From the NCBI GenBank assembly GCA_903866255.1, contig CAIPMW010000082.1, positions 1 through 64,000 on the forward strand: DNA of 64,000 nucleotides, given 5' to 3'. A model generated the notes under the pieces. The model was given only the letters and a program-made list of their open reading frames with translations, ran no database searches and was not told the origin of the DNA. A program made the translations under genes and the position numbers. Below, one piece after another: positions 3,952 to 6,721 of the stretch. The first letter of the stretch is position 1, and every line of letters starts with the position of its first letter. This DNA comes from an uncultured Chlorobiaceae bacterium. GTDB taxonomy: Bacteria; Bacteroidota; Chlorobiia; Chlorobiales; Chlorobiaceae.

Positions 3952-4416
3952 ATGATCAACGTAAAGATAGTTCGTCTTCACAAACAAGCAATAGTGCCGG
4001 TTTATGCAACAGCACATGCTGCCGGTATGGATATTTCAGCCTGCATTGATGAGCCGGTAACACTTGAACCCTTTTCAACAGCTCTCATTCCCTCAGGCTT
4101 TTCCATTGAGTTGCCCGAAGGGTATGAAGCACAGCTTCGTCCGAGGAGCGGGCTTGCCTTGCGATCAATGATCTCGCTGCCAAACTCTCCGGCAACAATT
4201 GATGCTGATTATCGGGGGGAGGTTAAAGTTATCCTCATCAATTACGGGAGAGAGCCATTCACTGTATGCCATGGCGACCGTGTTGCGCAGATGGTGGTGG
4301 CAAGGGTTGAGCAGGTTCAATTTGAAGAGGTTCAGGTACTTGGCTCAACGGTTCGTGGCGAAGGGGGATTTGGTCACACAGGCACCGGTGTCCGGGAGGT
4401 TGTACAACCATCCTGA
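3952..4416 (+). CDS. dut: dUTP diphosphatase
   Basis: Dut hydrolyses dUTP to dUMP and pyrophosphate, keeping uracil out of DNA and supplying dUMP for thymidylate synthesis. The 154-residue protein shows the five trimeric-dUTPase motifs in order: AAGMDISA (motif 1), PRSGLALRS (motif 2), GVIDADYRG-like [12 protein letters not shown] (motif 3), GDRVAQMVV (motif 4) and the C-terminal arm [12 protein letters not shown] (motif 5), which closes over the active site. It overlaps nothing and is transcribed away from bshB1. The converging gene at 4480 ends 63 bp downstream. Confidence 0.95.
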
Positions 4417-4479
4417 GCGAGGCATTCTAAAGCAGCAAGGAAGCTTCGCTCAGGATGGTGGCAGGAGGACTCTTTTGCG

Positions 4480-5181
4480 TCAGAGTTTAATTACTTGAAC
4501 AGGTGGGGTTGTAACAACCTCTTTGGGAGTGAAGCGGATCTCCGTAACATCTTTTTTCTGCCGGCTTCCTGAGGCACCACCCATTCCGCCTGGTACAAAG
4601 GAGTTGTTCATAAGTTGCCCTAGCCCGATGCTGACGTTATTGAAGAGGTTCTGTATCTGGTTGGAATTCCCAACTGCATTAAGGTTTTCGAGCAGACCGG
4701 TCCATAATTTTCCGAGTTCCTGAAAAGAGTTCTGCGTGGTGGAGGCAACGCCGTCAATGAGTTGTCCGGAAACAGAGGTGACGTTGTTGAAAATCTCTTG
4801 AACTGGTTGTGAATTGATGGTGGAGGTGACGCCGTCAATGAGTTGTCCTGTTGCCGAAGTGACAGAATTGATCACTTCCTGAATCGATTCGACCGTAATG
4901 GTAGATGTGACGCCGTCAATGAGTTGCCCTGTAGCTGAACTTACAGAATTGAACACTTCCTGTACTGGCTCAGACTTGATGGTAGAGGTGACGCCCTCAA
5001 TAATCAGCCCGGTTGCTGAGCTTACCGAACTGATAGCTTCCTGCACCGACACAATTGTTGAGTCAATCAAGGAACCCATGCTTCCAATCAGATGAGCCAT
5101 GTCTCCATTTCCGATACCGGTTTCCGTATTGCCGATCGAGGCAGGTATACCCGCCGACTTGCTGAGTTCTTCTGCAGCCAT
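4480..5181 (-). CDS. Hypothetical protein built of 27-residue tandem repeats
   Basis: I do not recognise the family. The 233 residues hold four well-kept 27-residue units (about residues 46-72, 73-99, 100-126, 127-152), each of the form [V/I]QE[V/I]xNSV[S/T]SATGQLIDGV[T/A]ST, plus two degenerate units at 153-175 and 176-198. The N-terminus is Gly/Ser-rich and the tail is Gly-rich then basic. There is no signal peptide, cysteine or obvious membrane span. The heptad-like spacing of hydrophobic residues suggests amphipathic helices, as in phasin- or apolipoprotein-like surface coats, or a filament. That is inference. It sits alone between dut and crtQ. A role in coating chlorosomes, granules or sulfur globules is only a guess. 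Confidence 0.6.
   Translation of the reverse strand: MAAEELSKSAGIPASIGNTETGIGNGDMAHLIGSMGSLIDSTIVSVQEAISSVSSATGLIIEGVTSTIKSEPVQEVFNSVSSATGQLIDGVTSTITVESIQEVINSVTSATGQLIDGVTSTINSQPVQEIFNNVTSVSGQLIDGVASTTQNSFQELGKLWTGLLENLNAVGNSNQIQNLFNNVSIGLGQLMNNSFVPGGMGGASGSRQKKDVTEIRFTPKEVVTTPPVQVIKL
4726..5046 (-). repeat. Four ~81-bp tandem coding repeats
   Basis: Inside the hypothetical gene, about 81 bp recur four times. The phrase GACGCCGTCAATGAG (plus strand) appears at about 4747, 4831 and 4909, with a diverged copy near 4990. The repeats keep the reading frame (27 codons each), so copy number could vary by slippage or recombination without breaking the gene. Confidence 0.75.
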
Positions 5182-5359
5182 AATTATAGGGGATATTAGT
5201 GGTGAGTAAATGAAAGAAATTTTTGGAATATAACAACTTATTCGCCAAGTCGTTCACATCTTGCAGCAATTTACTGAAAGTGATGCACCTCCTTCCTGGT
5301 ACAGCAATAACTTACATGCACAGTCCGATTTTCATCCCGGGGATAACTTGTTTCGCCGC

Positions 5360-6721
5360 TCAGTTGCCGAATCTGCTGAGCAGCTTTTCTGCAACCAGCT
5401 TTCCGCTCAGCGCAGCACCTTCCATTGAGGCGAGATAGTGCTGGTCCGTGTAATCACCTGCCAGGAAAAAGTTTTTGACAGGGCTGATTTGGTCAGGGCG
5501 AAATTTGTCGACATCGGGCACTGCCTTATAGACAGACTGTGGAATTTTGACTATGGTTGACTTCAGAAGTCTGGCGTCGCAAGATTTTGGGAAACGATTA
5601 TGAATCTCTTCGATGACGATGTCGGTAATAACTTCATTGGGCATATCAAGTAACTGATGCGCCGGAGCAAGCACCAGACTCATGACACTGCCGCCATTTG
5701 CTGTGCCCATACCGCTCTGGAAATCATCCGGGCAGGTTATTGAGACATCGGCAAAGGTTGCAAAAAGAGTGCCCTGCGAAAACATGAGATTATCGATATC
5801 GGTTATTTTGCGGTCAAACCAGAGTTGGCAGTTTATGACAGGACTGCCGACAAATTCGTGCAGATTTCGGAAATATTTGTGTGCAAGCCATTGCGGAGGC
5901 AGAATCTTTTTGAGGTTGTGAACAGGCAGCGCCGAGATGTAGGCATCAGCCACAATGTTATGACCATCCCGAAGTACTGCCCCCTTGATGGTATCATCGT
6001 TGTTCAGCTCAAACCGGCTCAGTTTTGCATCCACAAAAATGCGCCCCCCTTTGCTCTGGATATATTGACGAATTGGTTCTATCATTGAATCGCCAGGATT
6101 TTTCCGGAAAAAAGCAAACCTTGTGGCAGTGTAATTGGTGCCAAAATAGTTGAAAATGGTAATCATCGGACGGGCGCTGATGATGTTGGGCTCAATGAAA
6201 TTCATGGCCAGGGCTATGGCTCGCCACAGTTTTTGCAGAGAGTGTTCCGAAGCTCCTTTTCGCCGATGCCACTCCGAATAGGTCATGCCATCCTGGCTGC
6301 GGAAATAGGCTTCATCACCGGTAATGGCGGGGTAGAGCCCCTTTATCAGCGAAAGTTTATCCCGGAGTGTGAGAAAATCTGTCTTGAGACAGCCCATAAC
6401 CTCTCCCCATGGACTAGGCAGGTTTGCTTTTTTGAACACCGTCAGCTTGCCGTTCTCTTCAGCATAGATAAGTGAGTGCTCTTTCCACTTATAGTTATGT
6501 TCTGCGCCGACTCGTTTCAGATAGCTCTGGAGCTGTTCATAGCCACCGAAAACGATGTGCAGTCCCGATTCTATGGAGTCACCATCACTGTCTTTCCACA
6601 CTGAAACTTTGCCGCCAAGAACCTTGCGTTTTTCATAGATCTCTACGGAGTGGCCTTTATCGACAAGTTCCACTGCTGCTGCAAGGCCAGCCAATCCAGC
6701 GCCGAAAATTGCTATTTTCAT
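5360..6721 (-). CDS. crtQ: Zeta-carotene desaturase CrtQ-type (or phytoene desaturase CrtP-type)
   Basis: These FAD enzymes introduce double bases into the C40 carotenoid backbone on the way to lycopene; green sulfur bacteria use the plant/cyanobacterial two-enzyme route (CrtP, CrtQ) with CrtH. The 453-residue protein opens with the dinucleotide fold IAIFGAGLAGLAAAVELVDK. It has the ESGLHIVFGGY region typical of plant-type desaturases and ends with the FAD-binding signature FFLAGDYTDQHYLASMEGA. CrtP and CrtQ are close relatives. I favour CrtQ because I recall a crtQ beside lrp and a type III glnA in Chlorobaculum, but the DYTxQxYLASMEGA motif is also PDS-like. The gene is divergent from lrp. 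Confidence 0.75.
   Translation of the reverse strand: MKIAIFGAGLAGLAAAVELVDKGHSVEIYEKRKVLGGKVSVWKDSDGDSIESGLHIVFGGYEQLQSYLKRVGAEHNYKWKEHSLIYAEENGKLTVFKKANLPSPWGEVMGCLKTDFLTLRDKLSLIKGLYPAITGDEAYFRSQDGMTYSEWHRRKGASEHSLQKLWRAIALAMNFIEPNIISARPMITIFNYFGTNYTATRFAFFRKNPGDSMIEPIRQYIQSKGGRIFVDAKLSRFELNNDDTIKGAVLRDGHNIVADAYISALPVHNLKKILPPQWLAHKYFRNLHEFVGSPVINCQLWFDRKITDIDNLMFSQGTLFATFADVSITCPDDFQSGMGTANGGSVMSLVLAPAHQLLDMPNEVITDIVIEEIHNRFPKSCDARLLKSTIVKIPQSVYKAVPDVDKFRPDQISPVKNFFLAGDYTDQHYLASMEGAALSGKLVAEKLLSRFGN

Follow-up and report, generated by a model that had tools for sequence, protein, structure and literature searches.

A window of 64,000 nucleotides from an uncultured Chlorobiaceae bacterium carries at 4480-5181, on the reverse strand, a reading frame for 233 residues with an ATG start that is open throughout. 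The question raised by this locus is which protein it encodes and what its repeats might do. A preliminary description had placed it in no known family that could be named. However, the NCBIfam model TIGR03058 (rpt_csmH, "chlorosome envelope protein H"), a repeat model of 27 positions with a curated cutoff of 60 bits, matches the protein in four stretches with 148.8 bits (E=2.4e-44). The protein thus exceeds the cutoff for the CsmH repeat by 88.8 bits, and the clear match to a characterised family that was to refute the unnamed family has been found. The gene is almost certainly csmH, and its host a green sulfur bacterium of the Chlorobium type. CsmH, or chlorosome envelope protein H, is known from the skin of the chlorosome, which is the light-harvesting sac of these bacteria, and chlorosomes had correctly been named as a place to look. 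The family is already known, its repeat is already catalogued and the find is mostly ordinary; since the family is known, the main value lies in the correct label.

Identity and repeat architecture

The protein was compared with the characterised CsmH of Chlorobaculum tepidum, for which a mass of 21.6 kDa and a location in the chlorosome envelope were reported (PMC3175400). A syntenic orthologue is present in a C. tepidum-like genome (G141), with a mass of 21,779 Da (21.78 kDa), or about 21,650 Da (21.65 kDa) without Met. The same genome encodes proteins of 7.48 and 7.61 kDa without Met and of 11.10 kDa with Met, and it was read as C. tepidum partly because these masses match those reported for CsmB (7.5), CsmF (7.6) and CsmD (11.1 kDa). 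According to PMC3175400, which refers to Vassilieva et al. 2002, ten proteins have been identified in the chlorosome envelope of C. tepidum, CsmH among them. The ten masses given for the chlorosome proteins are 6.2, 7.5, 14.3, 11.1, 6.7, 7.6, 21.6, 25.9, 21.8 and 24.0 kDa (PMC3175400).

The composition of the protein, of low complexity and rich in Thr, Ser, Val and Gly, and its weak matches to unrelated proteins could suggest a repetitive protein unrelated to CsmH, exposed at the surface or secreted, whose score is a matter of composition. The Pfam search gave no match over the cutoff. The search of PDB sequences gave chance matches alone (best E=0.07), chiefly stalks of spike proteins, which share a Ser/Thr/Val/Gln composition with the protein. 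This reading has practically no probability left and is refuted by the TIGR03058 score, attained in four stretches, by the conserved synteny and by the conserved ends outside the repeats; the start of the chain also bears no likeness to a signal peptide.

The features of the locus are presented in Table 1. The 27-residue helical repeats announced in the preliminary description are real and were recovered by the repeat profile, by TRF and by self-comparison: at a lag of 27 residues 69 residues are identical, while the best lag over all lags reached at most 38 in 2000 shuffles. The in-frame repeat of 81 bp also stands, as a TRF array at 4814-5033 which is independent of the repeat profile. Four units were correctly counted (residues 45-152), but they are far from near-identical, the pairwise identities being 41-74% in protein, 54-77% in DNA and only 33-59% at third codon positions. 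The array is therefore old, with no recent expansion. Unit 4 ends 5 residues earlier than in related four-unit proteins. As for the two degenerate units, the repeat profile confirms one at residues 175-190, and HHalign gives 88% for the repeat profile against the C-terminal profile of CsmH; the other, near residues 18-44, is discerned by eye. The length of the C-terminal tail is highly variable among species.

Table 1. Features of csmH, of its flanks and of the gene for a related 71-residue protein.
Feature	Position	Strand	Basis
csmH coding sequence, 233 aa, 24.0 kDa, pI 4.3	4480..5181	-	ORF, TIGR03058 match
Possible promoter TTTACT-16-TATAAT, just upstream of csmH	5183..5210	-	10/12 match
N-terminal segment, residues 1-44, conserved motif GNGDMAxLIGxxGxLIDST	5050..5181	-	conserved columns
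27-aa unit 1, residues 45-71, SVQEAISSVSSATGLIIEGVTSTIKSE	4969..5049	-	repeat profile
27-aa unit 2, residues 72-98, PVQEVFNSVSSATGQLIDGVTSTITVE	4888..4968	-	repeat profile
27-aa unit 3, residues 99-125, SIQEVINSVTSATGQLIDGVTSTINSQ	4807..4887	-	repeat profile
27-aa unit 4, residues 126-152, PVQEIFNNVTSVSGQLIDGVASTTQNS	4726..4806	-	repeat profile
Conserved amphipathic segment, residues 153-174, FQELGKLWTGLLENLN	4660..4725	-	conserved columns, structure model
Degenerate repeat unit, residues 175-190, IQNLFNNVSIGLGQLM	4612..4659	-	repeat profile, 5.1 bits
C-terminal tail, residues 195-233, with K/R-rich stretch QKKDVTEIRFTPKE	4483..4599	-	no helix predicted
Hairpin between convergent dut and csmH	4407..4459	.	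-43.3 kcal/mol, z -7.8
Gene of the 71-aa protein	L084:1489-1704 = G000 contig C87:20328-20540		CsmH profile match

Occurrence and genomic surroundings

The description as a lineage-type protein is borne out, and CsmH was found in Chlorobiaceae only. The search of green sulfur bacteria that had been proposed finds CsmH in 44 of the 198 genomes that were sampled from the phylum; all 44 belong to a single family (f1), and the 14 control genomes gave no match. A scan of 84,980 species, with one genome per species, gave 76 csmH loci confirmed by tblastn, all in Chlorobiaceae or Chlorobi records and including Chlorobium ferrooxidans, C. phaeovibrioides, Pelodictyon luteolum and Chlorobaculum species. 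The closest named record is a Chlorobium MAG with 92% identity. The host genomes, the window's own among them, contain CsmA- and CsmC-type genes, and the family thus occurs in chlorosome-bearing Chlorobiaceae. In one genome (G010) neither csmH nor dut was matched, in a search that had no positive control; this is probably an assembly gap, because dut is missing too, though it is readily found beside csmH in most loci. In another (G034) a short csmH match runs into the end of the contig.

The gene order glnA-lrp-crtP-csmH-dut-bshB1 is kept across Chlorobiaceae, with insertions in some lineages that separate csmH from crtP or from dut. By our own reading, a glycosyltransferase pair lies in the first of these positions at L060:5222-6513, and a response regulator of the sigma-54 type in the second at L048:5452-6930. 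The gene csmH is convergent with dut and lies downstream of a crtP-like carotenoid desaturase gene, whose match to TIGR02731 is under the cutoff of that model. The desaturase (5360-6721) reaches 425 bits against 15-cis-phytoene desaturase and 345 bits against zeta-carotene desaturase, both under the curated cutoffs. The neighbours are not chlorosome genes, so the synteny supports orthology and not function.

The very strong hairpin between the two convergent genes is the probable shared 3' end of dut and csmH. No T-run terminator was found at it, and its arm sequence has no second copy within the window. The promoter candidate is weak and abuts the start codon, with 2 such sites in the region against 1.1 expected.

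Length steps and a 71-residue relative

The amphipathic helical character of the series is confirmed, with significant hydrophobic moments at 100 degrees for units 2-4 (P<=0.001) and a weaker one for unit 1 (P=0.004). The helix periodicity of the four units peaks at 98 degrees per residue, which is the angle of the 11/3 helix. This helix, with three turns per 11 residues, has the periodicity of the lipid-binding helices of apolipoproteins and perilipins. The units carry a net charge of -2, and the helices are acidic and weakly hydrophobic (mean Eisenberg value 0.23-0.35). Structure prediction was also proposed earlier; AlphaFold2 with 44 homologues gives an all-helical chain with breaks near the unit boundaries, at residues 69-70, 95-96 and 123-124, in a model of low confidence (mean pLDDT 50, pTM 0.22).

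It had been suggested that the length may vary between strains; it does vary between species, which have 2, 3 or 4 units. Among 61 distinct proteins the distance between two conserved anchors was measurable in 55, and in 47 of these it equals 83, 94, 105, 110, 137 or 148 residues, that is, 83 plus multiples of 27 and 11. The exceptions (90, 103, 132 and 133 residues) reflect small differences at the ends, the value of 132 being that of the window's own subclade. The tree of the neighbouring genes requires at least some 8 changes in the number of units and some 5 in that of the 11-residue inserts, with the exceptions assigned by hand, several weak forks and many rows partly filled. The length of the repeat region thus shifts between species almost solely by 27 or 11 residues, and it has done so several times independently, a feature that may be new.

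The 11-residue inserts are tandem duplications of 33 bp with copies identical at 20-30 of 33 bases, and they occur in lineages that take separate places in the tree. Inserts of 33 bp within csmH were noted in L012, L021, L044, L045, L056, L071, L072 and others. A bias of duplication toward 33 bp may be an alternative source of the 11-residue steps. The DNA of units 2 and 3 shows 90-91% identity in three loci (L067, L070 and L018), where unit 1 differs by 25-35%; a recent duplication or conversion inside the array would give such a pattern.

From a second gene the window's genome encodes a protein of 71 residues that is found by the CsmH profile with E=1.4e-8. It is homologous to the N-terminal segment and the first unit of CsmH (residues 1-71; HHalign 96%, E=2e-9), a likeness that holds in both search directions. 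It was present in all 22 of the Chlorobiaceae genomes sampled, and as a query it matches csmH in most. Unlike CsmH, it has neither a repeat array nor a C-terminal domain, and its gene is at a separate locus, adjoining a gene like that of mannose-1-phosphate guanylyltransferase. The C. tepidum form has a mass of 7.41 kDa (7.28 without Met), which gives no good fit to the ten listed chlorosome proteins of that species. Its identity with CsmB or CsmF was rejected, both being found separately in G141 with matching masses; CsmB weakly resembles its last 37 residues or so (HHalign 58%, E=1e-4). The protein is a candidate additional chlorosome envelope protein to be looked for in existing chlorosome proteomes. 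It may already bear a name in the literature; in the literature searched no mention of CsmK was found.

We tentatively suggest two points, neither of which was found described. CsmH might act as a helical ruler whose evolution proceeds in whole structural steps, where 27 residues are one helix and 11 residues are three turns of an 11/3 helix, and the conserved 71-residue protein might be an eleventh protein of the chlorosome envelope and represent the one-unit form that gave rise to CsmH. If true, the lengths of CsmH would be a natural series for testing envelope protein length against chlorosome size. The phenotypes of single csm mutants are reportedly weak. The natural length variants across dozens of species could be correlated with chlorosome size and pigment type.

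Possible role of the repeats and comparison with known Csm proteins

This analysis established the family to which the protein belongs, the architecture of its repeats, its amphipathicity, its restriction to one lineage and the changes in its length. The most likely mechanism, held with somewhat more than even confidence, is that amphipathic helices form a peripheral coat on the lipid monolayer of the chlorosome. Each 27-residue unit would form one short amphipathic helix of about 24 residues, with the Ser/Pro-Val-Gln-Glu turn as its start. Its V/L/I/A face would lie in the galactolipid monolayer that surrounds the aggregate of bacteriochlorophyll c/d/e, and the Ser/Thr/Asn/acidic face would point toward the cytoplasm. 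The string of units could act as a multivalent coat that helps to set the area and shape of the envelope, its reach being tuned by the unit number. This proposal follows from the hydrophobic moments, the low-confidence helical model and the reported envelope location. The helix arrangement and the lipid contact are predicted, the structure model being poor, and we infer rather than observe that the helices rest on lipid and that CsmH controls size or shape. Single csmH mutants of C. tepidum reportedly grow nearly normally, so that any role in size or shape would be redundant.

The weak hydrophobicity and the acidity of the helices fit packing between proteins as well. The repeats might self-associate or bind other Csm proteins, as an envelope scaffold or cross-linker, instead of lipid, an alternative that we regard as less likely than not. 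The Ser/Thr/Gly-rich faces, the acidic surface and the modest hydrophobicity would suit helix-helix packing, and 27 residues are four heptads (28) minus one, close to the phase of a coiled coil. Li et al. 2006 reportedly studied cross-linking contacts among the chlorosome envelope proteins. However, the best helical angle is that of the 11/3 type, against about 103 degrees for a heptad coil, and the inserts have 11 residues and not 7. A role for CsmH as a minor antenna protein with bound pigment or carotenoid is very improbable. The reported envelope location and the adjoining desaturase gene might point that way, but other genes separate the desaturase gene from csmH in some species. The protein contains no Cys, one Trp and one His, which argues against ligation of pigment by His, and no His is found among the invariant columns.

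CsmC and CsmD (Pfam PF11098) are, like CsmH, alanine/valine-rich envelope proteins, and CsmC was reported as dispensable (PMC12214013). CsmH scores 13.4 bits against PF11098, under the cutoff of 26.3 (E=0.079); HHalign gives no significant link to CsmC (22-47%), and CsmD scores below its own shuffles. CsmB and CsmF are small envelope proteins and amphipathic like CsmH. Here HHalign gives 2-27%, shuffles score about as high, and the link is an indirect one through the 71-residue protein. Homology of CsmH to any of these four proteins is unsupported or marginal. The window's genome (G000) has three CsmB-like proteins, on contigs C58, C29 and C76 (L255, L256 and L261), whereas G141 has one CsmB and one CsmF.

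The closest correspondence is with the known CsmH family (TIGR03058), with which the protein shares the 27-residue repeat, the N-terminal GNGD..LIDST and C-terminal QNLFxNVSxGLxQL segments, and the placement of the gene beside dut and bshB1. The two differ in length: CsmH of the window has four full units and 24.0 kDa, while the C. tepidum-like orthologue has two units, the mass of C. tepidum CsmH being 21.6 kDa.
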